Below, piece after piece: positions 1 through 28,809 of a stretch of DNA of 32,925 nt; the stretch's first letter is position 1, and each line of letters starts with the position of its first letter. The notes under the pieces were generated by a model. That model was not told the DNA's origin. It saw only the letters and a program-made list of their open reading frames with translations, and did not search any database. The DNA comes from Kiritimatiellia bacterium. Its GTDB lineage: Bacteria > Verrucomicrobiota > Kiritimatiellia > UBA8416 > SLMC01. The position numbers and the translations under genes were made by a program. The stretch is taken from positions 1 to 32,925 of the forward strand of contig SLKS01000162.1 of NCBI GenBank assembly GCA_007134465.1, given 5' to 3'.

Positions 1-970
1 CAACAAGAACATTGTCGTAGTTCCTGATACTGGTTTTTGATCGAACAGTCGACCAACGGGTCCTTTCGCAACTGTTATCCAGAAGACCCACATCACAATC
101 ACCAGACGAATCCGTGCCGTCTAACGTAATATTGCCCCCAACATAAGCGACGCCGCCCCCGGTGTTCCACGTGCGTGCATCAATGTCTCCAGCAAAAAAG
201 TCGCCTTTGTGTACGATCTTCACATGTCCCACGTTTGTCGTGTTGTTCCCGCCCCCGCCCCAGGTTTGGATATCGCCGCGGTTGCCATCGCTGTCTGCTA
301 TAGAAACCTTGCCTTCGGCGTATATGGCGACAGGCTGACCTCTTTCAATGTTTCCTCCTTCACCCCACCAGCCATGGGTGGAAATGAATCCGATCCGGAC
401 ATCGCCCTCCACCGGATTCTGGCTACTTCCGATACTGACGGCGCCAGCCTGGGGCCGGCGTAGTGATCCGGAGGGCGTCACGTGAGCTGAGTCGGTCTCG
501 ATCCCGCCCATCGAGATGGGCCCGGCATTTATGATGACAAGGTTGTCTACAGTATCGTGATTTTGGTAGCCAATCCTTTCATCCGGCATCCTGTGCTTGA
601 TCGAGAGGCCGTCCTGGAGAACGCCACCGACCGTGTTTGTGATCGCGGCGCCACCCAGATCATAGGTGATCGTTCCGCGCACCCACTGCTCCTCATTGCC
701 CGCCTCATGGTCTGCCCTGGTGTAAAGCAGTTCATATCCGGAAAAGTTGACGACATCGACGCCAGTCCAGGTGAACGTGAAATTCGGATGATCCCCTGTG
801 GCCTCAATGGTATCTGGAACCCCGTCCAGATCCCCCTCGATTTCAAGGATCTCCTGTCCGATCTGCTGGGATCCCTCCACGCGCCATACGTCATCCTGTG
901 CGCGCGCTATGCCGCTCCACAAACCGATCCCTATCACCGCCGCAATCAATCCGCACAGATGATTTTTCAT
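1..970 (-). CDS. Secreted solenoid/repeat-module protein, partial (runs off the left edge); paralogue of the proteins at 10849-13749 and 16740-18140
   Basis: Not in the ORF track because it is open at the window edge. Manual minus-strand translation from ATG 970-968: MKNHLCGLIAAVIGIGLWSGIARAQDDVWRVEGSQQIGQ...DNLVIINAGPISMGGIETDSAH...ITLDGTDSSGDCDVG...IRNYDNVLV, no stop seen. Signal peptide present. Motifs align with DDLDIIHVGNVEMGGIDARSAG, IRLDGGDASGDM and IKNYRHVHI of the paralogues. Confidence 0.8.
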   Translation of the reverse strand, partial: MKNHLCGLIAAVIGIGLWSGIARAQDDVWRVEGSQQIGQEILEIEGDLDGVPDTIEATGDHPNFTFTWTGVDVVNFSGYELLYTRADHEAGNEEQWVRGTITYDLGGAAITNTVGGVLQDGLSIKHRMPDERIGYQNHDTVDNLVIINAGPISMGGIETDSAHVTPSGSLRRPQAGAVSIGSSQNPVEGDVRIGFISTHGWWGEGGNIERGQPVAIYAEGKVSIADSDGNRGDIQTWGGGGNNTTNVGHVKIVHKGDFFAGDIDARTWNTGGGVAYVGGNITLDGTDSSGDCDVGLLDNSCERTRWSTVRSKTSIRNYDNVLV

Positions 971-981
971 GTTGCCCCCAT

Positions 982-2334
982 TTACATGCCTTCACCCTCG
1001 TTCCATTCCCCACGCTTGTATCTGTACGCCCACATAATGCCGTTGTCACGGCTGTCGCCGGCGAGGAAAACGAAGTGGACATTGAGTTCGGGATCGTAGA
1101 AGGCGTGCCCGTGATCCCAGCGTCTCTGGATGCCATCGGGCATCGGGAGGGGGTCGAGCCACGTGCTGGTCTCCGGGTCGTAAACACGCACTTTCTCCTT
1201 CGAATAGGCGTAGTCGAAAAACACGACCACGTCGTTCACGGAATCGTAGTGAATCGAGCACCGGTTGGTCGACCAGCGAGTCGGGCATTCGCCCTTGGCG
1301 TCCGGCTGCGACCAGGTATCCGTCTCGATGTCGTAGACCAGAAGAACATGCCGATTCCCTGCCTTCTCCAACTCATCCCTGGATCCGGGCCCGAACTTCC
1401 CGCTGTATATGACATTGCGCTTTGTATCGTAGCATGCATTGATGTCGTACCCGTACAACCTCTTGCCTTTGACCTTCACCGGCGTCCAGACGTTTTGCTC
1501 AGGATCGAAATAAGCGCCTTTATCCTGACCAAAGAGAAAAAACTGTTTTCTGGGCGGGATGTAGAAGAACTGAGGGAACCCCATCCTAGGCTGATTCCCC
1601 GATGCGGGATACCACTCGAATTCGCCCATGGCGGTGTCGTAGTACAAGGGCGACTTGAGTTTCGGTTCCCTGGCCTTGATCTCCTTCTGAAGATTTCTCA
1701 GCCCCTCCAGAACATCCTTGCGGTTGGGGGCGTTATAGAGCGTTCCGGGGAAGAAGTATGCATTGTAGGCGTGACCGACCGCGGTGGCGAACCGGTTCCG
1801 ATCCGTGTCATACGCAAAGAACCCCCAGGCGTGTACCAAATGACCGGGCATTACTCGGCCTTCGCGGTTGACAACCTGGCCTTTCTCGTTGACCCTGAGA
1901 TCGCCGTCCTTGACCTGCTGGCTGAAGTTCCTGGTGTAGACGCCCGGATGAATGCAGATCCAGCGGTGGGCGTTGATGTCGTAGACCCAATAGTCGTTCA
2001 TGCCATAGCCGTCCGGCTTGACATAGGCATGATTCCCCTCTCCCCCGAAGAAGGCGCCGCGGATGTCCGGAGCCAGAACGAACGCCTTCCCCCCCCAGCT
2101 TCGTCCCCTCGCCACGCCCCATTCGGGATCCGGTGCGGGCGCTCCAAGCCTTACCCATTCGTTATCGCCCAGCGCCTTGATCTTCTCCAGATGCTCGCCT
2201 TGCGGCTCGCTGGGCATATCCTTAAGCGGTCCCTTGCGCTGTTCGGCGGCTCCCGCGAAATCCACGCAGAAAACACCCGTTCCAACGGCCAGTAGCGTTG
2301 CGATCGTGACGTGTGCGCATGTCTTCATTTTCAT
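982..2334 (-). CDS. Secreted kelch-like beta-propeller protein
   Basis: 450-aa ORF with signal peptide (MKMKTCAHVTIATLLAVGTGVFCVDFAGAAEQ) and repeated blades such as DYWVYDINAHRW, LVYDIETDTWSQP, VRVYDPETSTWLDP. 11 bp upstream of the partial gene at 1-970. Confidence 0.75.
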   Translation of the reverse strand: MKMKTCAHVTIATLLAVGTGVFCVDFAGAAEQRKGPLKDMPSEPQGEHLEKIKALGDNEWVRLGAPAPDPEWGVARGRSWGGKAFVLAPDIRGAFFGGEGNHAYVKPDGYGMNDYWVYDINAHRWICIHPGVYTRNFSQQVKDGDLRVNEKGQVVNREGRVMPGHLVHAWGFFAYDTDRNRFATAVGHAYNAYFFPGTLYNAPNRKDVLEGLRNLQKEIKAREPKLKSPLYYDTAMGEFEWYPASGNQPRMGFPQFFYIPPRKQFFLFGQDKGAYFDPEQNVWTPVKVKGKRLYGYDINACYDTKRNVIYSGKFGPGSRDELEKAGNRHVLLVYDIETDTWSQPDAKGECPTRWSTNRCSIHYDSVNDVVVFFDYAYSKEKVRVYDPETSTWLDPLPMPDGIQRRWDHGHAFYDPELNVHFVFLAGDSRDNGIMWAYRYKRGEWNEGEGM

Positions 2335-2370
2335 TCCTCTTTATAGAACTTTCAACACAGCCATCTGTAC

Positions 2371-2543
2371 ACGGCGTGTTGCCCCAATCGAGATTCCTCG
2401 ACTTCGCGCGGAATGACAGACCGGGATTCACCGTTTCCCCTTTGTTTTGTCATCCCGCGTGTCCGCCGTAGTTTTTTCCCGAAGGCGGAAGCTTGTCGAG
2501 GGATCTCGCCGAAGGCGTTTTTTCGATTTGGGCAACACGCCGT
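2371..2543. repeat. MITE-like element with ~20-bp terminal inverted repeats and internal inverted segments
   Basis: Left end ACGGCGTGTTGCCCCAATCG (2371-2390); right end 2524-2543 reads ACGGCGTGTTGCCCAAATCG on the minus strand (19/20). Inside the ends, CGAGATTCCTCGAC... is matched by inverted CGAGATCCCTCGAC. Confidence 0.7.
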
Positions 2544-2547
2544 TCAG

Positions 2548-5010
2548 TTATGGCCCGGTTTTCCACCAGGCGTACTGCAGCAAATGTCCCGACCGCAGCA
2601 GATTCCCGGCATCCGCATGCCAAGTCGAGTTGTTCGGCATAAACACGGGCGGACTGCGCGATTCGGGAAAGCTCTGCGCGAACAGCGACGATGCGCGGGT
2701 CAAGTACTCTCTGTTGCCGGTTTTCAAGCCCACATAGGCAAACAGACCGGACAGATAGATGGGCGCTTCGAAAAAGCTCTGCGCATGGAACTCGCGCTCG
2801 CAGCCCTCCTTCAACAATTGCAGGAGCTGCTCGTCGCCGGTCAGCGCGTGCAACTCGCACAGGCGCTGGATGGCCAGGCAATAGGCCTGGTCTTCGCGCG
2901 CATAGCTCTGGCTTCGCACCTGATGCCCTTCCCGATGCAAGTGCGGACCCTGGCTTTCCCACAGCGGTACGATATGATTGCGAAACAGGGCCAGCGCATG
3001 CTCAAGCCATTTTCTTTGGCCCGTCAATTCGAACATGGCTCCATAGACGGCCATCGTATGCACGGTTTCCGTAAGAGCGGGGTCGTCCAGTTCCTGCCAT
3101 ACTTCGATCAGGGCGTTAGCGTAGCGGTGACAAGCCTCCCGCACTTGGTGGTTGCCCGTGAGCATGTAATGCAGGACCAGTCCCGATATCAGGTTGGCGA
3201 GACGGGGCTGGTATGCGTCCCTGTTCAATTGCGTCGTGTGAAATTCCGGGAAAATGGCGAATCTCGCGCCGCCGCCCCGCTTTTGCAATCCGCGGTTTCT
3301 GGGCGAATCGCGATCCGACCAAAGCTGATCGACATCCACCGTATGCCGAACCATTTGCGAACCCAGTTGCAGGGCATGCACATCGCCAAAACGCAACGCG
3401 TTCAGATACATGTGATGCGACCATTCGTCTACGCCTACCTGGCCTCGGCCCGGAATGCTCAAATCGCCGAAATCCATCCACCCGAACCATTGGCCGGCAG
3501 ATACCCACGATCCGACTTGTCCCAACCACGGCTGCTTGCGAGCGGCGAACACGCTTGTGGGACTGTCCGGGTCCGAGGCGCTGCGCTGCATGCGGCCCCA
3601 GGATGCCAGCTTGAAATTCGCTTCGCGATGCTTTTCCACACGCGCATCCGGCGGCGCGAACAGACCCGGAGCCGCTCCGGTAACCGCATAATGCTCCGCC
3701 GAGGCCAGGGCAAAAAGAGGCATGTTCAGCTCCGCCCCTATCTCGTCAACGGTTCTGTCGGAAAAATCCAGCACAAACTCGTGTCCTTTTCGCAAGCCGC
3801 CAGGATAGCGATAAATTTTGTTGTTTTCGCCCATCGCGACCAGTTGCGTATCCATGCCCCCTCCCGGCCATCGCCAATGCCGTTGCCGCGGCCACTGACC
3901 CTCGGAAGGCCAAAGCCACAGGAGAAGCTTGTCCCGATCGAGCTCGATCGCCTTGTCGAAGTTCTGCCAGAACTCGCGGATGGCCGCGACCATGCGTCCA
4001 TGGTTGCCCTGAAGCTCCACCACGCCGCCCGTTCGGTCGCCTTGCTTCAGTTCCCGGTTGTCCCCCGTAACGGTATAGACGAAATCGTTCCAGGTATAGA
4101 AAGGCGCCCCGCCCCGCCGCTCGCGGTTATGAAACGGCAAGCAGCGTTGCAGCAATCGAAAACGGTTTTGAGCCTGTACGCCCTCGGCGGAGGCGGTGAT
4201 GGCGTCGCCTAGTCCCAGCCCCAGCTCAATCGCCATGCTGTCGAACGAAAACCATTCCGGCTTGGTCTCGCTTCCATATCCCATGGCGCCATGGTTCTCG
4301 AGCCAGAAATGGACATGCACGCGCGCCTGCCCGGCCCAGGCCGTCACACGCGCGGTGTAGCGCATGAGTTCGTCATGCGCGTCCGGGAATGTTCCACGTA
4401 TGCGCACGACCGCCCGCATCGGGCTGGACTCCTCCACGACCACCTCGTCCGGGCGGGCCGCGGCCACTTCACGACCGTCCTCGAGGATCAGGAAAGCGCC
4501 GCGTCCTTTCGCATTGACCAGCGTACGGCCTTCCTGCTTGACGTATTCGATCAGGCCGCCCGTCTCTTTCGGAATAGCGAATGCAATCGGACCGGTCGAA
4601 ATGCTCACCCGCTCCTGTCCGTCCTCCAGGACGACTGGAGACGTCGGCGCCGGATTGCCGCCCTGGGCCGAAACCATCAAAGCGCCGGCTTCGCCCTGCC
4701 CGACCGGAAGCTGCGTATCCATCAGCGCCCAGCGTACCGAGCCGTCGTCCCATGGCATCAGCATCCGAAACTGGGCCGGAATCGCCTTGCCGTCCGCGCG
4801 AACGGCAAGCGTTCCGGTATCGCGCAACGCGCCCCGGGCGAAGGGGATGCCCGTGGTCACCAGCGCCGGCATTCGCCCGGACTTGCCCGGCTCGCGCACG
4901 GTAAGGGCCATATCCATGCTTTCCGCTTTCGCATGCGGCCATATTCCGCTAGACGCCAGAAGAATCGAAGCCGCCACGATGAATTGTTGTCTTGTTGATT
5001 TCTGTTTCAT
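2548..5010 (-). CDS. PcRGLX/YetA-like exported protein (exo-rhamnogalacturonan lyase family-like, N-terminal RIFT-barrel type)
   Basis: ORF 2548-5052; likely start MKQKSTRQQFIVAASILLASSGIWPHAKAES (ATG at 5010, AAGGA upstream). N-terminal GIPFARGALRDTGTLAVRADGKAIPAQFRMLMPWDDGSVRWALMDTQLPV resembles the PcRGLX/YetA N-terminal domain. Alpha-rich C-terminal half. Confidence 0.6.
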   Translation of the reverse strand: MKQKSTRQQFIVAASILLASSGIWPHAKAESMDMALTVREPGKSGRMPALVTTGIPFARGALRDTGTLAVRADGKAIPAQFRMLMPWDDGSVRWALMDTQLPVGQGEAGALMVSAQGGNPAPTSPVVLEDGQERVSISTGPIAFAIPKETGGLIEYVKQEGRTLVNAKGRGAFLILEDGREVAAARPDEVVVEESSPMRAVVRIRGTFPDAHDELMRYTARVTAWAGQARVHVHFWLENHGAMGYGSETKPEWFSFDSMAIELGLGLGDAITASAEGVQAQNRFRLLQRCLPFHNRERRGGAPFYTWNDFVYTVTGDNRELKQGDRTGGVVELQGNHGRMVAAIREFWQNFDKAIELDRDKLLLWLWPSEGQWPRQRHWRWPGGGMDTQLVAMGENNKIYRYPGGLRKGHEFVLDFSDRTVDEIGAELNMPLFALASAEHYAVTGAAPGLFAPPDARVEKHREANFKLASWGRMQRSASDPDSPTSVFAARKQPWLGQVGSWVSAGQWFGWMDFGDLSIPGRGQVGVDEWSHHMYLNALRFGDVHALQLGSQMVRHTVDVDQLWSDRDSPRNRGLQKRGGGARFAIFPEFHTTQLNRDAYQPRLANLISGLVLHYMLTGNHQVREACHRYANALIEVWQELDDPALTETVHTMAVYGAMFELTGQRKWLEHALALFRNHIVPLWESQGPHLHREGHQVRSQSYAREDQAYCLAIQRLCELHALTGDEQLLQLLKEGCEREFHAQSFFEAPIYLSGLFAYVGLKTGNREYLTRASSLFAQSFPESRSPPVFMPNNSTWHADAGNLLRSGHLLQYAWWKTGP

Positions 5011-5082
5011 TTTGGACATTCCTTTTGACTTTGGATAGGCCTCGTTGGGCATACGGGTTGTGCGGCGGAGCCCGCCCTACGT

Positions 5083-5988
5083 TCACGGCGGATCCGAAAA
5101 ATGTTTTTCGCGCAGATAGGGGGTCGGATGGATTCGGATCAAATAGGATGCCCATGGCACGCGTCCGCGGTGAACAGGAAGTTGAGGATTGTTTTCGAAA
5201 TCCCGGGTATGATCCAAAATCGAAGCGTGGTTCAGATCGAATCGAAGCAGGGCGGCCATCGCCTCCTGGTTCTCGATGAACCGGCGCGCGCTGCCGTCCA
5301 GATGCCGACCGTGGAACGACAGCAAATCCACGGTTCGGGCGCCGGCCGGTCGTCCGCGCGCGCGTGGCTGATCGGGAATCGTCACGGTTGTACGCACTTG
5401 GAAATCCTTCATGAGATCGGCATAAATCGGCTGCAGATCGCGATACACTTGCATATCGCGCGGATCGAGATCCGGCGAGGAATTCCAGGCTTCCGGGTTC
5501 TCGGGTTGCGGCACATCCTCGGCGGGTTGCAACGTAATCCGAATTTGTCCTGCATATGGTCCGGAGCGATACGGAGTGAAAACAATCCGGGCCATCGGAA
5601 CGGGAGCATGCATCTGAAGAATCGGATTGAGCATGCGCATGTTCTCGACATCGGGGATGCGATAGACCGCCACGCTTTCGCGGCTGCCATCTTCCAGTTC
5701 CACGATCTCGTGGCGTTGCAGCGTCATGCCTTCGCCCATGTGCGCCATGCGGGACAGCGCCGCTTCACGATTCAGGTGGCGCACGGCCTGATCGACCCCG
5801 CCAGGCCGACCCTGCGCAAGATCCAAGAGGGTTCGCGAAATCCGCAGCCGCTCGGTCACGGTTGCTCCCGCGTCTTTCTTGTGCAACTCGATATCCATGT
5901 CGAGCTGCAAGCATCCCGTCGCTCCGCAGAGCGCCGCCAGAACCATGGCGGCCGCAGCGGAACGCTTTGCCTTTTTCCTTTGTTTCAT
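5083..5988 (-). CDS. Putative lipoprotein of unknown function
   Basis: MKQRKKAKRSAAAAMVLAALCGATGCLQLDMDIELHKKD...: basic-hydrophobic-small residues-Cys lipobox-like N-terminus. In frame within ORF 5083-6465; the longer form would overlap the upstream gene. Confidence 0.65.
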   Translation of the reverse strand: MKQRKKAKRSAAAAMVLAALCGATGCLQLDMDIELHKKDAGATVTERLRISRTLLDLAQGRPGGVDQAVRHLNREAALSRMAHMGEGMTLQRHEIVELEDGSRESVAVYRIPDVENMRMLNPILQMHAPVPMARIVFTPYRSGPYAGQIRITLQPAEDVPQPENPEAWNSSPDLDPRDMQVYRDLQPIYADLMKDFQVRTTVTIPDQPRARGRPAGARTVDLLSFHGRHLDGSARRFIENQEAMAALLRFDLNHASILDHTRDFENNPQLPVHRGRVPWASYLIRIHPTPYLREKHFSDPP

Positions 5989-6047
5989 GTGGCTCCTTGT
6001 TGGCAGAACGAGGACCCTGCCGCTTCGCTCCGGCCTTCCCGACCCTG

Positions 6048-9000
6048 TCACGGCTCGTGGACGGCCAAGGTTAGCTCGTGGCCGCCGAGCAGGGCCAGGG
6101 TCCCGTTCTGCGCCGTGGCCGAGGCACGACCGTGCTCGCCAAAGACCCCGGTTCCCTTGACGCGCATCGTATGCAGCCGCTTGCCGTCGGCAATGCGGAA
6201 AGCTTTCAGCTCGAAGTCCTGACGGTCCTGTGTTTTGGCAACGAGCACGTCCCCGTGAAACTCCGGGCGCAACCGCACCGCCGGACGGCTCTGGTAACCG
6301 CTTTGCTCGTTGGGCCGGAACAGGTCCTTGCCCGTAGCGCAATCCAAGCCGACAAAATAGAAGCCCTGGCCGGCATGGGGTCGGATTCCGTACAGTTTTC
6401 CGTTCCGGATGGTCATGGAATAGAGCGGCTGAGGCGATTGCCGGTCTTTCGGATCCGTGCGCCACAGCATGGCGCCGTTCTCCGCGGAAAGCATGTAGAT
6501 CGCGTTCACATCCCAGTCCTTCTTCAGGACAGCCAAAAAGCCGTCGCCCATGGCGAAGCGGAAAGGGGGCTCGCTAGACATGTCGTTATGGTCCACGAGC
6601 CGTTGCCAGGCGATGCGCATCTTTTCCACATCCAGCATAATATAGCGCCAGCCGTCCGTGACCAGCAGCCGGCCCCCGTCCCGCGCCAGCGGCAGTGCTT
6701 CCGGTCCGTCCTCCACCAGCGGATGTTCCGTATGCAAGGTCAGGTCGGGCAGGACCAGTCGCCCGATCAGACGGCCGGTGACCCGCGACCGGGTTGTGAG
6801 ATTGAACGGCTGACGCCGCACGCTGACCCAGCGGTCGTCGTGGAAATAGGGCGCGCCGTAGAGGGCCCCTTCCTCGCGTGTCTGCCAAGCCACTTCCCCG
6901 CGCGGATCGTCCGTGCCCAGATAGAGCGCCACGGTTTCGGACGCCCCCGCCAGAACCAGCAGTGCGCCGCTCTGGCTCGCATGCCGAATTTCGAAGGCGA
7001 ACGGCGCCCGGTAGCGCCATTTCAGAGTTCCGTCCTTGAGCCGGAAGGCCAGCACATCGTACCGCCCGTGCGTGACGACGACGTCGCCGTGAACATAGGC
7101 ATCGAAGAAGCCCGGCTCGTCCCCCAGTCCTTCCAACCGCAGCTCGTCGAAACGCGCCTCGCCCCGCACTTCCGTCGCGCGCCAACGGGTCTTGCCCGTG
7201 CGCGCGTCCACGGCATAGAGCAGGAACTTGTTGTCGAAACGCGTGCGTATGCGTCCGCCCAGGAACAGCAAGTCGGGTTCGACATCGTGCCGGCCGTGTC
7301 GTTCCAGCGTCAACCAAACCGGACTGCGTTCCTCTTCGAAGCTCGCGTTCCGGCTCGTTGCCGGGAATGCCATCGGCAAGCGTGGCGGCGCCGACGGCGC
7401 CAACAACCTGGCGGCAAACCCTTCCGGGACGGTCAGCGCGCACGTCTGCGCCACGTCCGCCAGACGCCATAGTCGTCGGCGCAAGGAGGCGGCCGTTTCC
7501 GCCTCGATCCCCTCGACGGCAAGCGCCGCGGCCGCGCTGTCCAATAAATGCTCCAAGGCCGTTTGCGCCGCCTTCGTCCCCGGATATTCCGGCAGCCGAA
7601 CGAGCCGTTCCTCGTCCGCAGCCTTGTCGAGCGCAGCCCTCGCCGCCTGTTCGAAGACCGTTGCGAACGATTCCGAAGACTGGCGCAAGCGATTCAAGCG
7701 GGTGGCGGCCCACACCTCGGCGCGCAGGGTCAAATCCTTTTCCAGCGGCGAGAGCGCTCCCCAATACATCGGCATCGCCTCGGCCAGCAAATCCGCATGT
7801 GTGCCTAAAAACGACGCATGCGCGGAAGGCGACACATGAGCGGCCGCCTGTTCAAGAATCTGCCGCGCCGTAGGGAGAATCTGTTCGACCTGCGCCTTTT
7901 GCAACGAGGTCATCGGATAGCCGTAGCGCCCATAGGTCGATACCACCGACTGCCACTGCCTCATGGCCCGCTCCTTGTCCCCGCTACGCTCGTAGGCCTC
8001 GGCGATGACGAAACGCGACTCCAATTCGTCGCCCAGCGTTGTCGCCGCACGACTCATTCCCAGGCCGTGCGCGATCTCCGACTCCGTATCCCGCGCATGA
8101 ACGCTGCCGCGCGCCAACGCCGCATGCGCCTGATACAATTGCTGATGGATCAGCGTCCTGAAATCGGTTGCCTCCGAAGGCAGTACGGCCAGGCACCGCT
8201 CCATCAAATCGGCCGCCTCCGAAAGGCGACCGTCCCGCAGAGCGACTTCCGCGCGCCCGAACAAACCCTCCGGATCTTCCCGTCCTTGCAAGGTCTTGTC
8301 CACCTCTGCCCGATCATATACCATCGCCACCTGGTCGGGCGCGAGGCGCAGCTCGAAGCGGGTGTTGTAGCGCTCGAACGTAACGCGGGCAAAAGGCAGA
8401 AACTGCGGATGCTCGTTTTCAACGGGTTTGTCGGCCGCGATGGCGCGCAAGGTTTCGATTTCCTTGCGGGGCGGATTGGGGAGATCTTCAAGATAGTCGG
8501 CCATTTTCGAAGACAACTCGACGGCGCGCTCGGCAGTGGAAACAAGGCTGCTGCTAAAATATCTGCGTCGTTCCGTCACGGGCCGGTTCCCATGGTTTAG
8601 ATCGTACACGGCCAGGTTCGAGCCAAACCCGAAAATCGGAAATCCCCAGTAGGAAAAGCCGCCCGCAATCAGCCGCCCGTCGCTTCCCAGAAACGGGCGG
8701 GCCGTCACCTGATAATTGGCCCGGTCGTGGCTTAACGTCATAAAGTTGTACGGGTCGCGGCCGGATCTTCTTTCGTATCGTTTGCGGATGCTCGGTTGCG
8801 GCTCGATTGCCACCGGATCCTCCAGACGCGCGTCGACCCTGCCCGTCTCGGGATCCAGCAAAACGATCGGCCCCTCTTCGCCGGTGCGGCCGTCGTGGCC
8901 GCTAGGCGCCATGACCAGCCGCCCGTCCGGTAGCGGCCCCAGGAAATAGGCGGCTCCGCCCGTTTTTTCCGCCGTCCAGCGCACCGTGCCGGTACGTCGG

Positions 9001-10808
9001 CACAGTTTGTACAGGAACTTCGAGTTCACCGGCAGCACGTACAGGTCGTCGCCGATCAGCAAGGGCCGCTGCGCATACCAGAACATGGGACGATGCGGAT
9101 AGACGCTCATTCGGGTATGCCTCTCCGCTTCGCCGCCGCTGCCGAAACGGCGGGTGGCGTCATGCACGGCATGCGGATGGTACCAATAGGGGTAACGCAT
9201 GATCCATTTGATCTGGCCCGACAGCGCGTCCAGCGCCGCGATCGTGCCTGCGTTGGTCGTGTGATACACCGTGCCCTGATGGTACAGCGGCGGCGAGGCA
9301 AAGCTGCGAATCCGGTTGCGCCGTACCGCGCCTTCCGCCACGAACCGGCCCGGCCGCAGACGGCCCAGTTCCCGTCGCCAGCGAATCCGGCCGGTCGCGC
9401 TGTCGAACGCCATCACGCCATATTCCGTGTCCGTGTGCGTCTGGCCCTCGATGTTGTCGAGAATGTAGCCGGCATACACCGTCATCGGCCCGCCCGCCGG
9501 CGCCGCCTCGAAGCGCAGATTGGCCTCTTCCGCCGTCGTCGCGGCCATCGGTCCGTACGCCCAGCGCAACTGCCCGGTAATCTTGTCGAGCGCCGCCAGG
9601 GAAGGCCCGCCGTGGTGGAGCGGCGTGAATACCAGCCCGTCCTGCACCAGCACGTCTTCGTGCGTGTACTGTCGCTCGCCCCAGTTCTGCCACGTCACGC
9701 GACCGCCGGTGTTGTTCAGCCAGCGCAACTCCCCGGTAAGCAGCGAACGGCAGTACACGATGTTCTTGTGCCGGTAGATCACGCTGTTTTCCGTGACCAC
9801 CGGGTTGCAATACACATACGCGTCCCAGTCGCGCGCGCCGCGTATCGAGCCGGACAACGCATGCGCCCACGTCGGTTCCTTCAACCCCAGCGGATCCTTC
9901 GTGGGCGGCATCAACGCGTAATCGTCCGCCGCAACATAAGGAGGGCTGCTTCGTTGTTCGAACGTTGCCTTGGTTTTCGGACGGGTCGAATCGACAACGA
10001 TGCGAAATTGCTCCAGAGTCTCTTCCGCAAGCCGACTCGCGCTCTCGTGCGTCTCGCGCTTCGCGGCTTTCCCGATAGGGTCGCCCAGCATTTTTCGACA
10101 CAGCTCGATCTTCAGCCGCAGCTCCGGCGTGCGCGCCATCGGGTCGGGAAAATAGTCGCGCACGGTCGTGTAGCGCTCCAGCGCCTCCAGGTAATGGCCG
10201 CGGTCCAGCGCCGCGTCCCCCAGCAGAACCAGCGCCGCCGCACCGTAGGACGTGGCCAGCATCGTGTCGCGCACATGAGCCACCCCTTCCAGCGAATGGC
10301 GCTGCCGCGCCAGCTCGAACGCCTCGCGCGCCCGCGCGTCGTGCTGGGTCCGGTACAACGCCAGATGCCGCGGCGGAAACGTCAGCATGCGCAATTGCGC
10401 GTACTGCGCGATCGGTACGAACACCCCGTAGGGGCTGACCCGGTACAGCTCGTCCGGGTACTCCTCGACGACCCGATGCAAAATGTCCAGCGCTTCGCCA
10501 TGCTGTCCTTCCGCGGCACGCTCCCGCGCCGCCTCGATCAGCGCATAGGCCCGCTCCGATTCCAACAGCAAATTCAGCGTAAAAAAAGACGGCTCCGAAG
10601 ACAAGTCCATCAACTCCGGACTCGGCTCCCGCCGCCCGCCCTCATGCAGCGACTTGTCGATGAAATCGGGCCTGTAGTTTTCGTATGTTTGGCGAAACGG
10701 ATCGGGAGAAAGACCCGCCGATTCATTGCCCGCGCGAGCTTGCCAGGCCGCGCATGTTCCCAACGCCATCCAGCCGCTCAAAATCCATGCTGTTCCTCTT
10801 GTCCCCAT
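6048..10808 (-). CDS. Large exported TPR/PQQ-like beta-propeller protein (1586 aa)
   Basis: Signal-like N-terminus; helical repeat region (ALIEAARERAAEGQHGEALDILHRVVEEYPDE, ALERYTTVRDYFPD); many PQQ-type blades (FTPLHHGGPSLAALDKITGQLRWAYGP, VMAFDSATGRIRWRRELG, IAALDALSGQIKWIMRYP, LYAVDARTGKTRWRATE). GGAG upstream of the ATG. Confidence 0.75.
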   Translation of the reverse strand: MGTRGTAWILSGWMALGTCAAWQARAGNESAGLSPDPFRQTYENYRPDFIDKSLHEGGRREPSPELMDLSSEPSFFTLNLLLESERAYALIEAARERAAEGQHGEALDILHRVVEEYPDELYRVSPYGVFVPIAQYAQLRMLTFPPRHLALYRTQHDARAREAFELARQRHSLEGVAHVRDTMLATSYGAAALVLLGDAALDRGHYLEALERYTTVRDYFPDPMARTPELRLKIELCRKMLGDPIGKAAKRETHESASRLAEETLEQFRIVVDSTRPKTKATFEQRSSPPYVAADDYALMPPTKDPLGLKEPTWAHALSGSIRGARDWDAYVYCNPVVTENSVIYRHKNIVYCRSLLTGELRWLNNTGGRVTWQNWGERQYTHEDVLVQDGLVFTPLHHGGPSLAALDKITGQLRWAYGPMAATTAEEANLRFEAAPAGGPMTVYAGYILDNIEGQTHTDTEYGVMAFDSATGRIRWRRELGRLRPGRFVAEGAVRRNRIRSFASPPLYHQGTVYHTTNAGTIAALDALSGQIKWIMRYPYWYHPHAVHDATRRFGSGGEAERHTRMSVYPHRPMFWYAQRPLLIGDDLYVLPVNSKFLYKLCRRTGTVRWTAEKTGGAAYFLGPLPDGRLVMAPSGHDGRTGEEGPIVLLDPETGRVDARLEDPVAIEPQPSIRKRYERRSGRDPYNFMTLSHDRANYQVTARPFLGSDGRLIAGGFSYWGFPIFGFGSNLAVYDLNHGNRPVTERRRYFSSSLVSTAERAVELSSKMADYLEDLPNPPRKEIETLRAIAADKPVENEHPQFLPFARVTFERYNTRFELRLAPDQVAMVYDRAEVDKTLQGREDPEGLFGRAEVALRDGRLSEAADLMERCLAVLPSEATDFRTLIHQQLYQAHAALARGSVHARDTESEIAHGLGMSRAATTLGDELESRFVIAEAYERSGDKERAMRQWQSVVSTYGRYGYPMTSLQKAQVEQILPTARQILEQAAAHVSPSAHASFLGTHADLLAEAMPMYWGALSPLEKDLTLRAEVWAATRLNRLRQSSESFATVFEQAARAALDKAADEERLVRLPEYPGTKAAQTALEHLLDSAAAALAVEGIEAETAASLRRRLWRLADVAQTCALTVPEGFAARLLAPSAPPRLPMAFPATSRNASFEEERSPVWLTLERHGRHDVEPDLLFLGGRIRTRFDNKFLLYAVDARTGKTRWRATEVRGEARFDELRLEGLGDEPGFFDAYVHGDVVVTHGRYDVLAFRLKDGTLKWRYRAPFAFEIRHASQSGALLVLAGASETVALYLGTDDPRGEVAWQTREEGALYGAPYFHDDRWVSVRRQPFNLTTRSRVTGRLIGRLVLPDLTLHTEHPLVEDGPEALPLARDGGRLLVTDGWRYIMLDVEKMRIAWQRLVDHNDMSSEPPFRFAMGDGFLAVLKKDWDVNAIYMLSAENGAMLWRTDPKDRQSPQPLYSMTIRNGKLYGIRPHAGQGFYFVGLDCATGKDLFRPNEQSGYQSRPAVRLRPEFHGDVLVAKTQDRQDFELKAFRIADGKRLHTMRVKGTGVFGEHGRASATAQNGTLALLGGHELTLAVHEP

Positions 10809-10848
10809 ATATCTCCATGCCCAATCTCCGGACCGGTTTTTTCATGAT

Positions 10849-13749
10849 CTACCGGAACCGGATCACGGTGCCGGCGGCAGGCTCGGGCATAAGAACTCCG
10901 CCCGTTTTCTCGCCGTCCAGATCCCTGAGCTGCCAGACTTTACCCTCCAGGTCGTCGTTCAAACCACCCGGCGCGTACGTATAGAAGACACGCTGGCCGA
11001 ACGGCGCCCGCAACCGTGTCTCGTCCGTCGCATAGGGATCGTTGAGCGTGCCACTGCCGGTGCGATTGTCCATGTTGAATCCGGCAATGGGGCCGGTAAT
11101 CGTTGTCCGACCGCCCCCGCTGCTCAGCTCGGCCAATCCGACTTTGGCGAGGTTCAACTCGGCCAGTGTCACCGTGCCGGCGGTATGCAGGCGCAGAAAG
11201 CCGTGGTCCGCCGGATGATTTCTGTTTTCCAGGTCGATTTCCCCGTCAATTTGGATGTCTCCGGCAATGTTGTTGATGGCAATCACGTCCGCGGCGCGCC
11301 CCGCATTGTCCTCGACCCAGCTCTCGATATCCCCGCCGATGTGGACATGGCGGTAGTTCTTGATTTCGATTTCAATCTGATTGGCCCTGCGCGTACCGTG
11401 GCTCGCGCGCAGGCGGCCTTCCACCGTCATGTCGCCGGACGCGTCGCCGCCGTCCAAACGAATACTGGCAGCGTCCCCGTTCAGATGGGCGGACGTCGTC
11501 ACGATGTCGCGCACCCGGAAGCGCCCCCGGTGCACAATGGTCACATCGCCGCTGGTTCTGTTGCGGTTTCCTGAAGTGACTATATCGCCCGCCTGGCCGT
11601 GGATATCGGCAATCCGCACATCGTTCGTGGCATAGACGACGACAGCGCCGCCATTGCCAAGATCGCTGCTTGTATCGGTACGAAGATAATCCAGCCGCAC
11701 CCGGTTGACAGGCGCCGTCTCCGTGCCCAGCCGCAGCGTCCCTCCGTCCCGGTAGTTGCTGCCGGCGCTACGGGCATCGATGCCGCCCATTTCGACATTA
11801 CCGACATGGATGATGTCGAGATCGTCCACATGATGGTTCCGATACAGCTCCACCGCCAGGCTGTTGGTTCCGACCAGGTCCGCGCCTGCAAAATCCAGCA
11901 CGATCTTCTGCTTGTCCGTATCCGTCGTGCGCGCGCAGTACAGCTTGCGGGAACTCAGGTCGACAACAGTGGGAACGGGAGCCAGCACGGAAAAGTCGAA
12001 TGTCCAGGGCGAGGCTTCGCCGCTGCGCCGAACCGGCGCGTCGGTTTCCTCGAATGTCAGAAAAGGGTTGTCCCCGTCCAGTTGCCGATTCTCTTTCAGG
12101 GTAAGCACACCGCCGGCCCAAGGCGTTATGAAAAATTGCGCGTCCCCCCACGCTGTCCCCGCATCGTTAGCGGCTGCATAGCGATACGTGTATTCCTTCC
12201 CTGTTTCGACCGGTATCGTATGCGCATACTCGTCCAGAAGATCGCCTTCATGCGCAGGCCATTCGTGCCAGTCGTCCCAGCCCGTCGCGGTCGCGCCCTT
12301 GTCCCCTTCGGTCCCCCAATGCACCGAGACTACCGTCGCCGACAAACCCGTGGCCGTCAATACGCCCACCAGCGTGGCGCTGGGCAGAACCACGTCCCGG
12401 GGAGGGGCGGTGGCAATTCCGGGCAGATCGCTCTTGGGCGCAAGGATGCCGCCTTCCCCCGCTTCGCCGTCCAGATCGGCCAATCGGTAGCTGTAGCCGC
12501 CGAGGTAGGCGTTCCGACCCTCCAGGGTCGAATACTGTACCATCGCGCCTGCCGGTGCGCGCAACGTCGTCTGCGTAGTGGCCCAAGGTTCCTCTACGCT
12601 ACCGGTTCCATGGGTGGATGCGGTGTCGAAACCAAGCAGTGCCCCCTGAATGACCGACATGCCGGTTCCGCCGCCGCTGCTCAGCTCGGCCAATCCCGTT
12701 TGGGCGAGGTTCAACTCGGCCAGTGTCACCGTGCCGACGGCATGCAGACGCAGAAAACCGTGGGACGCCGGATGATTTCTGTTTTCCAGGTCGATCTCCC
12801 CGTCAATTTGGATGTCTCCGGCAATGTTGTTGGTGGCGATCACGTCCGTGGCGCGTCCCGTCGTGTTATTAATATAGCCCTCGATATCTCCGCCGATGTG
12901 GACATGGCGATAGTTCTTGATTTCGATTTCAACCTGATTGGCCCTGCGCGTACCGTGGCTCGCGCGCAGGCGGCCTTCCACCGTCATGTCGCCGGACGCG
13001 TCGCCGCCGTCCAAACGAATACTGGCAGCGTTCCCGTCCGCATGGGCGGCCGTCGTTACGATGTCGCGCACCCGGAAGCGCCCCCGATGCGCGACGGTCA
13101 CATCCCCGCTGGTCCGAACACGGTTTCCCGAAGTGACCATATCGCCCGCCTGGCCGTGGATATCGACAATCTGCACATCGTTCGTGGCGTAGACGACGAC
13201 CGCGCCGCCATTGCCAAGATCGCGGCCGGCGCTGGTATATAGATAGTCCAGCCGCACCAGACCGGCACGGGCCGAGACCTCCCCTATCCGCACCGTCCCG
13301 CCGTCTCTGTAATTGGCGCCTGCTGAACGCGCGTCGATGCCGCCCATTTCGACGTTGCCGACATGGATAATGTCGAGATCGTCCGCATGATGGTTCCGAT
13401 ACAGCTCCACCGCCAGACTGTTGGTTCCGACCAGGTCCGCGCCGGCGAGATCCAGCACGATCTTCTGCTTGTCCGTATCCGTTGTGCGCGCGCAATACAG
13501 CTTACGGGAACCCAGGTCGACGATGGAGACATTGGGCAGGGACGAAAAGTCGAACGTCCAGGGCGATGCTGCGCCACTGCGTTCCACTTCCGCCTCCCCG
13601 ACAAACACGATCGCGGGCGTTGGATCTCCGCTGTCCGCGTCGAGACGCTGATCTCCGTCCACCGTATAGGTCTCGGCGCGGGCCGACAGCGACAACGCGC
13701 ACAAGACCATCCCGAAAACAATGATCAAACCCGATCGAATCGCTTTCAT
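10849..13749 (-). CDS. Secreted protein with two tandem solenoid modules joined by a fibronectin-III-like linker
   Basis: Start trimmed from the 13872 ORF to MKAIRSGLIIVFGMVLCALSLSARAETYTVDGDQ (signal peptide). Two near-identical blocks each contain WTFDFS..KLYCARTTDTDKQKIVLD.AGADLVGTNSLAVELYRNHH..DLDIIHVGNVEMGGIDARSAG. Confidence 0.8.
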   Translation of the reverse strand: MKAIRSGLIIVFGMVLCALSLSARAETYTVDGDQRLDADSGDPTPAIVFVGEAEVERSGAASPWTFDFSSLPNVSIVDLGSRKLYCARTTDTDKQKIVLDLAGADLVGTNSLAVELYRNHHADDLDIIHVGNVEMGGIDARSAGANYRDGGTVRIGEVSARAGLVRLDYLYTSAGRDLGNGGAVVVYATNDVQIVDIHGQAGDMVTSGNRVRTSGDVTVAHRGRFRVRDIVTTAAHADGNAASIRLDGGDASGDMTVEGRLRASHGTRRANQVEIEIKNYRHVHIGGDIEGYINNTTGRATDVIATNNIAGDIQIDGEIDLENRNHPASHGFLRLHAVGTVTLAELNLAQTGLAELSSGGGTGMSVIQGALLGFDTASTHGTGSVEEPWATTQTTLRAPAGAMVQYSTLEGRNAYLGGYSYRLADLDGEAGEGGILAPKSDLPGIATAPPRDVVLPSATLVGVLTATGLSATVVSVHWGTEGDKGATATGWDDWHEWPAHEGDLLDEYAHTIPVETGKEYTYRYAAANDAGTAWGDAQFFITPWAGGVLTLKENRQLDGDNPFLTFEETDAPVRRSGEASPWTFDFSVLAPVPTVVDLSSRKLYCARTTDTDKQKIVLDFAGADLVGTNSLAVELYRNHHVDDLDIIHVGNVEMGGIDARSAGSNYRDGGTLRLGTETAPVNRVRLDYLRTDTSSDLGNGGAVVVYATNDVRIADIHGQAGDIVTSGNRNRTSGDVTIVHRGRFRVRDIVTTSAHLNGDAASIRLDGGDASGDMTVEGRLRASHGTRRANQIEIEIKNYRHVHIGGDIESWVEDNAGRAADVIAINNIAGDIQIDGEIDLENRNHPADHGFLRLHTAGTVTLAELNLAKVGLAELSSGGGRTTITGPIAGFNMDNRTGSGTLNDPYATDETRLRAPFGQRVFYTYAPGGLNDDLEGKVWQLRDLDGEKTGGVLMPEPAAGTVIRFR
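11110..13590. repeat. Direct tandem duplication inside the CDS, 1557-bp offset (519 codons)
   Basis: 'gcctggccgtggatatcg' at 11591 and 13148; 'tgctcagctcggccaatcc' at 11121 and 12678; ORFs 11381-11635 and 12938-13192 are nearly identical. Constant 1557-bp offset at these anchors. Confidence 0.9.
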
Positions 13750-13889
13750 ATTGAAGAACCCTATCAGCCCATGATTTGACACCCGAATTCGGCATCGCAG
13801 CCGGTCGTGCATGCGCAAGGCTTGCGGGGCGAAGTGATGTTGGCATGCCGCAAGCCCCGCATATCGGAGCAACGTTTCCCCCCCTTTCC

Positions 13890-16601
13890 TTATTCGCGCA
13901 GCTTCACGTCGAAGGTTTTCAAGCTAGTCCGTTCCAGTTTGAGCACGCCGATGCGGTTCCACTCGAAAAGGAAAATGGCCACGCCCAGTTTCGGGTCGTA
14001 ATGCAGGGAACGGCTGCCGGTCGTGTTCCAGTAACGCACGTTGGACAGAATCTGATCCTTGCCTTCGAACGGCAGAACCAGTCCCGTCCATTGCTCCTTT
14101 TCGATGTCGTAGGCCAGATTTCCAACCTTATCGCCGACCTGCACGCGTGTCATGGCGAGCAGCATGTCGATTTCGGGCGCATACACGGTTTCTCGCATGA
14201 ACAAGCCTTCCGCGCCGCGCACGTCGAATTCGGTCAAAACCCCGTCGCGCATGTCGTAGCGCAACATCGGGCCGCCGCGATGCGCGAGCCAGAGACAGTC
14301 CCGTTTCGCGTCGTAGCACAGGCCGGACGTGTCGCCGTAGGCGCGGGGCAAGCGGGCGCCCGACAGCGGCAGTTCGCTCCATTCGCGGGCGGCGGCATCG
14401 AACAAATGCAAACGCCCGTCATGCCAGCAGACAACCCCGTGCGGTGTGGACGCCAGCGATATGTTCAGGGTGGTGGCCTTGGGATGGGGTTTGGGCGCAG
14501 GCGGGTACTCCCATTCCCGCACGGCCGGATCGTAAATCCATGTGCCGCCCCGGACATGCCAGACGCTTTTCCCGGATACGGGATCGTAGGCGGACGCATC
14601 CCACACGTGAATGGGGATGTGCGGGCGATTGTTGAACGTCTGATTCGCCATGGCGCGGAATCCGCTGCTGGTGGGTGGATTCTCGGATGCGTAGCCCAGG
14701 CTCCAGGACGCCGAAAGCAGGCTGTAGTGCGCCATGTCGGTTCCTTTGTACGAGCTGTGTCCGCCACCCCAGTGCAGGATCTGATGGCGGTCTGTATCGT
14801 AGGGCAAGGTGCCCCAGTCGCGACGGGGCGTGCCCTGCGGGGGCTCGGGCATCCACTGCCAGCGATTGGCGGGCAGCGCCTTCAGAAAGGCTTGGACGCC
14901 ATCGGGGTCCGGCGGGCGAGCGCCGTCGTAGTGATAGGGATGCAGTCCCGTCGCGTCGGCGGCCGGATCGTCCGCCCCCGGTGCCGGAGTTCGGCCGGGA
15001 GCCGAAGGATCCACGCGCATGCCCCAGACCCTGCGGGCGCGAAAGCGCGAACCCGGGCGATCGTCCACGACCACGAGCCGGTCCTGATCGTCGGCCGCGC
15101 CGTAGCCGCGCGCCGGTCCGTCCTCGAATTCGGCAAGCAAAGTCCACGTGTTGGCGGTCGCATCGTAAATCCAGAGATCCCGCATAGGTTTGAGAACGCG
15201 TCCCGGTCGTTCGCGATAGTCTATTTGCTGGGCGGGAGTGAAGCGTCGCCAATTGTTTTCCTCGGCGGGATCGGGGGTCTTGGCGCGCGTTGTTCCGCCG
15301 TACAGCGCGATCTTGCCGCTTTGCGGCAGCCAAACCAGCGTATGCCACGCGCGCGGCGCGGGCGCGTGTTCCGGAAAGCGTTGCTCCCAGGTGCGGGTGG
15401 CGCAATCGTACACCCAGGTATCGGCCAGAAAACGATCCTTGCGCGTACCGCCGAACAAGACGATTTTCCCGGTCTTCGGGTCCGTAGCCATCGGCGAGTA
15501 TCCGCGCCCGCACGGCTCGCTGTCCAGTGCGCGAGCCAGGTTCCAGGCCTGCGCTTGCGCCTGCTGGACCCGGGCCAGCGTTGCTTGCGCCGGATTCGTT
15601 TCCAGTGTCCTGGCCAGATCCGCCAGCGCCATGGCGCGCCGCGCCGCCTGTTGCGCGGCCATCATACGGACGTCGTTTTCGGCCGCCTGTTGCGCAAGCC
15701 GTTTCGAGAACCGCTCCGCCCGGTCCGCGAGTCCTTGGGCTTCGGCCGCCAAATCCGCTCGTTTTTCCGCTTCGGTTTCGGTAAGATAGAAACGATTGCG
15801 CAAACGATTGGCCAGGGCATCCGTGGCTCGCAACAGCGTCGCCGCTTCGGCTTGACGCTCGCGGTCCCGGTCGTTGCCGGACCCGATCTTGCGCCAGGCA
15901 GTCCGGTCCGCGCCGAGCGCCCACACGCCGGGTGTTCCCCCGTCCTGGTCGCTTGTGCCGCCAACCGACAGGATTTCCCGATTCACGGGATCGTAGGCCA
16001 GCGCGCCGTACATCATGGAATACGAACCGGATTGATTGAATGTGGGTGTATCCAGCACGGTCCACTGACGGGACGTCGGATCGAAGCTGGCCGTGACATC
16101 GCGAAAGTAGACAAAAATTCGGTTCGCTTCCGTATCGTAGGCATACTGATCGTGCAGACGGGTATCCGACCCGTAGGCGGCCACATTGCGATCCATGCGA
16201 ATGCGAGTGATGCCGGCTTTGTCGACAGGGAACGGGGGCATGGGCGCGCCTCTATGTGGCGCGTCCGTCGCGCCAGTTGTCTGACGATAGGGCGCGCCCT
16301 CGGGATAGGCGTTGTGCCATTCCCGTTTCGCCAGGTCGAAAAATTCGATGTCGTAGCGCTGCGGCAACGGCGAGATGCCCCCGCCCATGACAAATTGCCC
16401 GATGCTTGGCGCATAGATCCAGAACGGCGAATTCCGCATGCCATCCTCTTCTTCGCTGAGCAGCGTCCAGGCGTTGGACGACAAGGATTCCCGTTCCGAG
16501 GCGACCGCCTGGCCCGATGCCGCACGGCCAGCCATCAGTCCGGTCCACGCCAGAATCACCGCCGCGATCCTCTTTGCCTTAATCCATCCGTATGCGTTCA
16601 T
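13890..16601 (-). CDS. Secreted kelch-like beta-propeller protein with an internal helical insertion
   Basis: Start at MNAYGWIKAKRIAAVILAWTGLMAGRAASGQA (ATG 16601). Kelch-like blades (IVLFGGTRKDRFLADTWVYDCATRTWEQRFPEHAPAPRAWHTLVWLPQSGKIALYGG) flank an Ala/Arg/Glu-rich helical segment (DRERQAEAATLLRATDALANRLRNR...QAQAWNLARALD). Confidence 0.75.
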   Translation of the reverse strand: MNAYGWIKAKRIAAVILAWTGLMAGRAASGQAVASERESLSSNAWTLLSEEEDGMRNSPFWIYAPSIGQFVMGGGISPLPQRYDIEFFDLAKREWHNAYPEGAPYRQTTGATDAPHRGAPMPPFPVDKAGITRIRMDRNVAAYGSDTRLHDQYAYDTEANRIFVYFRDVTASFDPTSRQWTVLDTPTFNQSGSYSMMYGALAYDPVNREILSVGGTSDQDGGTPGVWALGADRTAWRKIGSGNDRDRERQAEAATLLRATDALANRLRNRFYLTETEAEKRADLAAEAQGLADRAERFSKRLAQQAAENDVRMMAAQQAARRAMALADLARTLETNPAQATLARVQQAQAQAWNLARALDSEPCGRGYSPMATDPKTGKIVLFGGTRKDRFLADTWVYDCATRTWEQRFPEHAPAPRAWHTLVWLPQSGKIALYGGTTRAKTPDPAEENNWRRFTPAQQIDYRERPGRVLKPMRDLWIYDATANTWTLLAEFEDGPARGYGAADDQDRLVVVDDRPGSRFRARRVWGMRVDPSAPGRTPAPGADDPAADATGLHPYHYDGARPPDPDGVQAFLKALPANRWQWMPEPPQGTPRRDWGTLPYDTDRHQILHWGGGHSSYKGTDMAHYSLLSASWSLGYASENPPTSSGFRAMANQTFNNRPHIPIHVWDASAYDPVSGKSVWHVRGGTWIYDPAVREWEYPPAPKPHPKATTLNISLASTPHGVVCWHDGRLHLFDAAAREWSELPLSGARLPRAYGDTSGLCYDAKRDCLWLAHRGGPMLRYDMRDGVLTEFDVRGAEGLFMRETVYAPEIDMLLAMTRVQVGDKVGNLAYDIEKEQWTGLVLPFEGKDQILSNVRYWNTTGSRSLHYDPKLGVAIFLFEWNRIGVLKLERTSLKTFDVKLRE

Positions 16602-16647
16602 TCTGCCTTCTCCCTTGTTTCTCCGTCTCCCTGTTCCACAGAATTGT

Positions 16648-16720
16648 TGCCCGGCTTTCCACAAGGCATACCGCAGCCAATGACCCGACGGCGGTAGATT
16701 CCCCGCATCCGATGCCTGGA
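16648..16720 (-). pseudogene. C-terminal remnant of a PcRGLX/YetA-like gene
   Basis: Minus-strand translation ASDAGNLPPSGHWLRYALWKAGQ closely matches the C-terminus of the 2548-5010 protein, HADAGNLLRSGHLLQYAWWKTGP. DNA similarity between 16648-16720 and ~2550-2625 is visible by eye. Confidence 0.7.
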
Positions 16721-16739
16721 TTTTCCGAACGAATTCTTT

Positions 16740-18140
16740 TCACTGAAACAGAACCACCGTGCCGGCGGGCGGCCGTACCATCAGCAGCCCTCCCGGCGCT
16801 TCCCCGTCCAGGTCCCTGAGTCGCCAGACTCTCCCTTGCAGTCCATCGTTCAATACGCCCGGCCGATACGAGTAATAGACACGTTGGCCGAACGGCGCGC
16901 GCAGGCGTGTTTCGTTTGTCACGTATGGGTCGGTCGCGGAGCCGCTCCCCGACAGCGTGTTCACATCGAAATGGTCAATGGCGCCGGTGATCTCCGCCCC
17001 TCTCTTTTCGCCGCTCAAAAAGGCATGGTGCACTTTGCGCAAGTCCAGCGCAGTCAATTCTATCCGACCTGCGGCCTTCAACTGAATCCAGCCGCTGTAT
17101 TCCGCGCGCTTGTCGTCATGCCGATTCTCCAGATCCACGGCGCCGAAAATTCTGATGTCGCCGGCAATGTTGTTCGTAACGACCACGCACGTTGTCTGTT
17201 CCGCGCGGTTGGCGGTGTTGACATAATAGCCATGAATGTTTCCTCGGATTTCGACATGGCGGTAGTTTTCGACAACAACCCTTACCTGATCCCGATGCTG
17301 CCGGAGGTTATGGGACGCGCGCAAGTCTCCCTCCGCAATCATGTCGCCCGAGGCATCTCCACCGTCGAGCCGGATGGCGCCCGCCCACGCTCCGCTTCCT
17401 CCCGTTGTCGCAACCGAGCTTGTATCGATAGAGCCGACCCGAAAATGTCCCCGATGCGACACGATCACATCGCCTCCCGAGCGGTACCGGCCTTCGGCAC
17501 GGGTTACGATATCGCCCGGCACGCCGGCCCGGCTGGCAATCGCTACGTCGTTCGAGCCGTACACCGTCACATTGCCTCCATCGGAAATGTCATCCGGACC
17601 CGCATGATAATGGTTGGCATATAAATACTCTGTCCTCACAAACCCCGCAGGAACCTGGGCCGTTCCAATCTGCACCGTGGCGCGCACGTTGTCTTGTCCG
17701 GAATTGCGGGCGTCTATACCGCCGATATCAACTGCGCCGACATTGACGATCGCCAGATCGTCGGACGGGCCGTTTCGCAGATCGGCATCGCGCCACATCT
17801 TGATGGACAAGCCGTTGGTTCCGATCAGGTCCGCGCCGACGAGATCCAGCACGATCTTTTGCTTGTCCGTATCTGTTGCGCGCGCGCAATACAGCTTGCG
17901 GGAGCCCAGGTTGACGACGGAGACATTGGGCAAGGACGAAAAGTCGAATGTCCAGGGCGAGTCCTCGCCGGTACGCGTTACCTTTTCCGCCGTGTTCTTG
18001 AACGCCAAAACAACGGGAGCGTCCCCGTCCATCTGCCGATCTCCGTCCAGCGTGTAGGTCTCGCCCGCCCGCCCGGCGCCCGCCGTTCCGAAAAGAACGA
18101 TGGCCGCTGCCGACATCGTTTTTCTGCATGCGCTGTTCAT
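16740..18140 (-). CDS. Secreted single-module solenoid/repeat protein; third member of the local family
   Basis: MNSACRKTMSAAAIVLFGTAGAGRAGETYTLDGDRQMDGD...WTFDFSSLPNVSVVNLGSRKLYCARATDTDKQKIVLDLVGADLIGTNGL...IRLDGGDASGDM...NNIAGDIRIFGAVDLENR...RLRAPFGQRVYYSYRPGVLNDGLQGRVWRLRDLDGEAPGGLLMVRPPAGTVVLFQ. Confidence 0.8.
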   Translation of the reverse strand: MNSACRKTMSAAAIVLFGTAGAGRAGETYTLDGDRQMDGDAPVVLAFKNTAEKVTRTGEDSPWTFDFSSLPNVSVVNLGSRKLYCARATDTDKQKIVLDLVGADLIGTNGLSIKMWRDADLRNGPSDDLAIVNVGAVDIGGIDARNSGQDNVRATVQIGTAQVPAGFVRTEYLYANHYHAGPDDISDGGNVTVYGSNDVAIASRAGVPGDIVTRAEGRYRSGGDVIVSHRGHFRVGSIDTSSVATTGGSGAWAGAIRLDGGDASGDMIAEGDLRASHNLRQHRDQVRVVVENYRHVEIRGNIHGYYVNTANRAEQTTCVVVTNNIAGDIRIFGAVDLENRHDDKRAEYSGWIQLKAAGRIELTALDLRKVHHAFLSGEKRGAEITGAIDHFDVNTLSGSGSATDPYVTNETRLRAPFGQRVYYSYRPGVLNDGLQGRVWRLRDLDGEAPGGLLMVRPPAGTVVLFQ

Positions 18141-28796: not shown

Positions 28797-28809
28797 GAGT
28801 TTCTCCCGT

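Follow-up and report, generated by a model that had tools for sequence, protein, structure and literature searches.

The contig analysed here raises the question of what a secreted protein module, encoded several times among genes for beta-propellers and a lyase-like protein, contributes to the cell. The contig (SLKS01000162.1 of assembly GCA_007134465.1, a Kiritimatiellia bacterium) was analysed over its entire 32,925 nucleotides, which we call the window (G000:C156:1-32925). It belongs to a genome of 4.0 Mb in 409 contigs (G000). How uncultured lineages of this kind grip and process polysaccharides is poorly understood, as many of their surface proteins cannot be assigned to a family. We found that the window encodes four copies of one secreted module of ~430 residues. 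On balance, we read it as a secreted, non-catalytic accessory beta-solenoid of extracellular polysaccharide-handling machinery, a reading that we hold with moderate confidence.

Four copies of one module in the window

The module copies were assigned as follows.

2..970, minus strand: module copy 1, of a divergent subfamily, with a signal peptide, the N-terminal cap and about six first coils (profile positions 1-293)
10849..13749, minus strand: two-module secreted protein of 966 residues, signal peptide MKAIRSGLIIVFGMVLCALSLSARA
12403..13749, minus strand: module copy 2, which carries the signal peptide and is the first module of the double protein
12124..12402, minus strand: linker of 93 residues between the two modules
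10852..12123, minus strand: module copy 3, the second module of the double protein, with the C-terminal tail GTVIRFR
16740..18140, minus strand: module copy 4, stand-alone, 466 residues, with signal peptide

Identity to the copy at 16740-18140 is 53-54% for the two modules of 10849-13749 (E 6e-120 and 1e-107) and 33% for the copy at 2-970 (E 5e-12); the two modules of the double protein are about 71% identical to each other. The copy at 2-970 matches the family profile at E 2e-99, although it is itself a row of that profile. The homology of the four window modules is far beyond chance.

All genes and motifs listed in the initial annotation are present, and all lie on the minus strand. The shared order of motifs that it described was recovered in the copies at 10849-13749 and 16740-18140. 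The copy at 2-970 departs from it, with FTFTWT and LLYTRAD...RGTITYDLGG in place of the WTFDFS and KLYCAR.TDTDKQKIVLD of the other copies. It is most closely related to a module that lies on a different contig (G000:C75), and the sequence places it in a divergent subfamily. The gene is cut by the contig end, so that the last coils and the C-terminal cap are missing. The count of four copies at one locus was confirmed, and the family extends further within the genome, with more copies on six other contigs (C233, C255 (partial), C114, C287, C135 and C75).

Module N-termini are preceded by signal-peptide-like sequences, and the window copies have a conserved C-terminal tail of the GTV(I/V)xF type. 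We considered the GTVIxFR tail as a mobile sorting signal on other proteins and rejected this idea, since the C-terminal cap profile matched module ends only (seven genomes, with one chance-level exception). The linker of the double protein has no significant Pfam match (best Cu-oxidase_3, E 0.12) and by eye resembles the Fn3-like linkers that follow modules elsewhere. G000:C302 (L078 / L011, L012) carries decayed module fragments; one of them precedes repeats translating as (K)KGxVPGFWxFGPRMSR-type sequence, which may be a minisatellite or a remnant insertion.

An undescribed family with a narrow distribution

No Pfam match at the cut-off covered the module in the window copies and 25 members scanned, the most divergent ones included, and no NCBIfam match was obtained for the window copies and one relative. 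A profile search against PDB sequences returned chance matches only, and a module search of viral contigs, phages and plasmids gave no match. The family had been called uncharacterised before any database search, and this description stands. The module is a previously undescribed domain family within the general kind of extracellular beta-solenoids. Sequence identity across its members is about 26-50%, with caps and coils conserved.

We found the module in 4 of the 346 genomes of the window's class: G000, G001 (of the same genus as G000), G010 and G071. An even sample of the window's phylum added no further module-bearing genome. A profile search of genome contigs pointed to one locus, in Planctomycetota bacterium B1Sed10_114 (genome G057), whose sample code B1Sed10 comes from a study of hypersaline soda-lake sediment (PMC6146748). 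This genome lies outside the window's class, since it was absent from the matches when the genomes of that class were searched. It has nine module matches and its relative G347 has seven, and these two were the only positives among 9 genomes of its class and 392 of its phylum. The family is thus as taxon-restricted as had been anticipated.

Predicted fold

AlphaFold models of two copies were built from a shallow five-row alignment. Both the copy at 16740-18140 (predicted local distance difference test (pLDDT) 78.2, predicted template-modelling score (pTM) 0.81) and the first module of the double protein (pLDDT 82.9, pTM 0.84) were modelled as essentially all-beta. In the latter model, coils start at residues 124, 153, 184, 217, 244, 274, 302 and 332, spaced 27-33 residues apart. 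Evidence independent of structure prediction came from hhalign comparison of family sub-profiles, in which positions 127-148 aligned with 223-245 (probability 84%, E 7e-6) and with 285-305 (probability 68%, E 5e-5). The offsets of these internal repeats correspond to roughly three and roughly five coils. Counting coil motifs by regular expression gave a number not clearly higher than in shuffled sequence, and we used this profile self-comparison in its place.

The module is very probably a beta-solenoid of about eight coils of ~30 residues with N- and C-terminal caps. As modelled, the N-terminal beta cap would span about residues 27-115 and the conserved C-terminal cap about 80 residues. Neither a Pfam family covering the whole module nor a structure prediction lacking a solenoid emerged from the analysis. 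The initial annotation had proposed a beta-solenoid, with a right-handed beta-helix as the predicted structure that would support it, and the solenoid agrees with the two models and the internal repeats. Its handedness is unproven, because Foldseek found no significant PDB match: for both models nothing was returned at E <= 0.001, with E > 0.1 throughout and template-modelling (TM) scores to the query of <= 0.35. The weak PDB matches are mostly beta-solenoids and leucine-rich repeats. One model was also compared with viral models by Foldseek, with no significant match.

Conserved residues and the question of catalysis

Polysaccharide lyases and hydrolases are common among beta-helix proteins, and module genes adjoin carbohydrate enzymes. 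This raises the possibility that the module is itself a catalytic beta-helix that has escaped recognition, acting as a polysaccharide lyase, a hydrolase or an epimerase; H229, the D262-D266 loop and Y293, which lie on three consecutive coils, would then make up its site. We ranked the conserved polar residues of the solenoid part among 25 members and found H229 (22/22), Y293 (24/24), D266 (23/25), N292 (20/24) and D210 (20/22) at the top; in the C-terminal cap, Y423, N431 and R414 stand out. The invariance of H229 and Y293 where aligned, together with the conservation of D266, is what such a site would predict. However, N133, H229 and N292 fall at equivalent coil positions in the repeat alignments and look like an inward polar ladder of the asparagine type. 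This equivalence, together with the inward parity, favors a structural role for H229. The most divergent members have a changed Asp loop, and fusion proteins of the family already carry another enzyme.

The module resembles right-handed beta-helix lyases and hydrolases (pectate lyases, PL6, GH28) in its ~30-residue coils, polar ladder-like positions and carbohydrate gene context. It differs from them in having neither a significant structural match nor a recognised catalytic set, and in being fused to separate catalytic domains. Searches of Pfam and of PDB sequences gave no match of the module to a beta-helix polysaccharide lyase or hydrolase, or to any family of the carbohydrate-active enzyme type. 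We consider a catalytic module improbable.

Fusions and the proposed accessory role

Fusion proteins of G057 and G347 join the module to a CE4 polysaccharide deacetylase (L035, L036:6432-9299, L075), to methyltransferase-like and PQQ propeller domains (L039, L072), and to a PQQ propeller with malectin (L037). Fusions to PATR passenger repeats plus PEP-CTERM were found at L041 (G057) and L074 (G347), and the module occurs with PEP-CTERM alone at L074 and L076 (G347). The tails at L074, L076 and L041, PEPAGLSLLGxALLGLKRxxRS, are PEP-CTERM-like, scoring 17.0-19.8 bits against a Pfam cut-off of 20.7. Several G057 and G347 relatives resemble PEP-CTERM/exosortase-sorted extracellular proteins (PMC1569441) in these ends, whereas the window copies lack the motif and end in the GTV(I/V)xF-type tail. 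In G071, the module lies in an open frame of 2313 residues (L070:6648-13586) with three PKD domains and TSP3 repeats. The module on G000:C75 is preceded by a glycine-rich domain and Fn3-like domains.

Since relatives fuse the module to CE4, PQQ propeller, PATR, PEP-CTERM and PKD/TSP3 parts, an accessory role is favored. The module, either as a separate protein or through Fn3-like linkers, would hold enzymes (the CE4 deacetylase and the neighboring PcRGLX-type lyase) and beta-propellers in place, on the cell surface or within exopolysaccharide, and glycan would most probably be gripped along the solenoid face. The signal-peptide-like N-termini, together with the PEP-CTERM-like sorting tails on relatives, agree with the secretion assumed in the initial annotation and suggest that the proteins are secreted in vivo. 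The same annotation had proposed a scaffold; our data favor a non-catalytic solenoid, which may be a scaffold or a glycan-binding module. Like carbohydrate-binding modules (CBMs) and Fn3/PKD-linked surface modules, the module is a separate block joined to CE4 and other domains via Fn3-, Ig- or PKD-like linkers. It differs from CBMs in being far larger and a solenoid instead of a beta-sandwich, and its putative glycan binding is suggested by architecture and neighborhood.

The same fusions could be read differently. The module may be an adhesin or passenger-type beta-solenoid for attachment or matrix building, comparable to two-partner-secretion (TPS) exoproteins and autotransporter passengers, with the enzymes as incidental neighbors. 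Both are secreted beta-solenoids built from repeats, two relatives of the module combine PATR repeats with PEP-CTERM tails, and others have PEP-CTERM alone. Its weak, non-significant Foldseek matches also include the secretion domains of FHA (1rwr), EtpA (8cpk), HMW1 (2odl) and HxuA (4i84) as well as autotransporter passengers. However, the matches cited have E > 0.1, mostly > 1, and no haemagglutination, TPS or autotransporter Pfam domain matched the module in any member scanned. The two PATR-bearing relatives end in PEP-CTERM, not in a barrel, and the window copies have no PATR; the genes recognised in the window include no TpsB gene. In several fusions a CE4 deacetylase takes the place of a passenger, and others carry propellers. 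An adhesin therefore appears rather unlikely.

Several observations weigh against the accessory solenoid that we favor. Stand-alone copies outnumber fusions in G000, so that the word accessory is drawn mainly from relatives, and no carbohydrate enzyme was recognised beside the modules on C233 and C75. With no significant Foldseek neighbor, the fold class depends on a prediction from a shallow alignment and on the repeats. The invariant H229 and Y293 leave room for an active or metal site.

We also examined regions of the fusion proteins that resisted classification. The proteins at L038, L042 and L073 share a conserved N-terminal domain of ~420 residues (82% identity to the first of the three), which in each of them precedes the module. 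It has no convincing Pfam match and is possibly propeller-like. We rejected a fusion of a window-like kelch domain to the module in G057 and G347, as neither kelch protein of the window is significantly similar to this N-terminal domain. In the 2313-residue protein of G071, residues of about 1100-2150 are unclassified and resemble PcRGLX and kelch by eye only; we do not claim these domains, given pairwise E values of 0.5 and 0.009 and no confirmation of either by Pfam. At L038 (G057:C166), stop codons fall within the profile match or at its end in two module genes (near 397-399 and 3392-3394), possibly a recent truncation or an assembly error.

Gene cluster and neighborhood

The other genes of the cluster in the window are as follows.

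21374..22546, minus strand: GntR-LacI-type regulator, the first cluster gene (Peripla_BP_3 E 1e-17, GntR E 1e-10), overlapping the STN-like/NHL gene
18165..21377, minus strand: protein of 1070 residues with an STN-like N-terminus and NHL propeller, the propeller partner, from a large paralog family in module-bearing genomes
13890..16664, minus strand: kelch/galactose-oxidase-type propeller of 924 residues (Pfam), flanked by two module genes
6048..10808, minus strand: TPR and PQQ (BamB-like) propeller protein of 1586 residues (PQQ_2 E 4e-31)
about 5083-5990, minus strand: lipoprotein-like gene within the cluster, MKQRKKAKRSAAAAMVLAALCGATGC start, unclassified, with no Pfam match
2548..5052, minus strand: PcRGLX-like protein with first and second PcRGLX domains and a GH127-like helical domain (Pfam)
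982..2334, minus strand: kelch propeller of 450 residues, 11 bp upstream of module copy 1

This compact cluster runs on the minus strand from the regulator (21374-22546) through the truncated module (2-970), with all genes co-oriented and intergenic gaps of mostly tens of bases (maximum about 210). From this gene order alone, we infer that the cluster may be co-expressed, as the initial annotation proposed, from one operon and co-regulated. The STN label at 18165-21377 stands for a weak, sub-threshold Pfam match (E 0.003).

A second locus of the same genome, G000:C287, repeats the set with a PcRGLX gene, an AraC-type regulator (assigned by eye), a module and an STN-like/NHL propeller. Its PcRGLX protein is 58% identical to that of the window over nearly full length. 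The company of propellers and a PcRGLX-type enzyme expected from the window is therefore a recurrent one. On G057:C14, two module genes lie amid several STN-like/NHL copies, and one of those copies is 49% identical end to end with the window's. In G347, a kelch gene adjoins a module-PQQ gene. On G071:C16, a module remnant lies directly upstream of an FlgD-Ig/NHL protein and a GH123 gene; GH123 and GH42-like genes surround this remnant.

Co-distribution and possible exchange of two families

G000, G001, G057 and G347 each contain a highly expanded STN-like/NHL family, and G002 and G010 have no match to it. At E <= 1e-60, only G000 and G001 matched among the 346 class members, and both carry the module. 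Because G000 and G001 belong to one genus, these genomes and G057/G347 represent two independent clades, and the association of module and propeller is suggestive, not a large-sample statistic. These proteins (~1070 residues) have tens of matches each in G057 and G347 and about 30 matching pieces in G000, and their genes are often tandem, with several, for example, on G057:C14 and C362.

The two class groups interleave in the module tree, whose well-supported branches force at least 6 group changes. Modules from G000:C114 and G057:C14 (G000_C114 and G057_C14a) pair with support of 100/100, as do G001_C2b and the propeller-type fusions of G057/G347 (100/100). The STN-like/NHL tree has at least 5 forced group changes, from a quick search with Shimodaira-Hasegawa-like approximate likelihood ratio test (SH-aLRT) support only. 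This interleaving suggests either that several subfamilies were exchanged between lineages or that an ancient expansion was lost nearly everywhere else. Exchange is the simpler explanation, since the module is absent from hundreds of relatives. Since the trees of both families mix the two classes in this way, surface carbohydrate systems may pass between distant lineages.

A patchy distribution, interleaved trees and decayed fragments on G000:C302 and G071:C16 are also what would be expected of a selfish or fast-spreading paralogous repeat family, expanding and decaying in a few genomes without a dedicated function. However, caps and coils are conserved across about 26-50% identity, signal peptides are intact, and the same partners recur with several different fusions. 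We regard a family without function as very unlikely.

Returning to the accessory solenoid, a broader proposal is that the module and the STN-like/NHL propeller family each form one half of a single polysaccharide-handling system at the cell surface, Sus-like in role and not in parts, which would exist in many paralogous sets and be exchanged as a package between distant uncultured lineages that share a habitat. This proposal is speculative, and we put it forward as a doubtful one. The module family described here can be searched for as a defined domain, and it comes with a predicted fold, a set of fusion partners and a propeller family that shares its distribution.

Elsewhere in the window, 27315-32867 holds three co-oriented genes with weak Pfam matches only, of which one resembles a squalene-cyclase-type repeat protein and one a large membrane protein.

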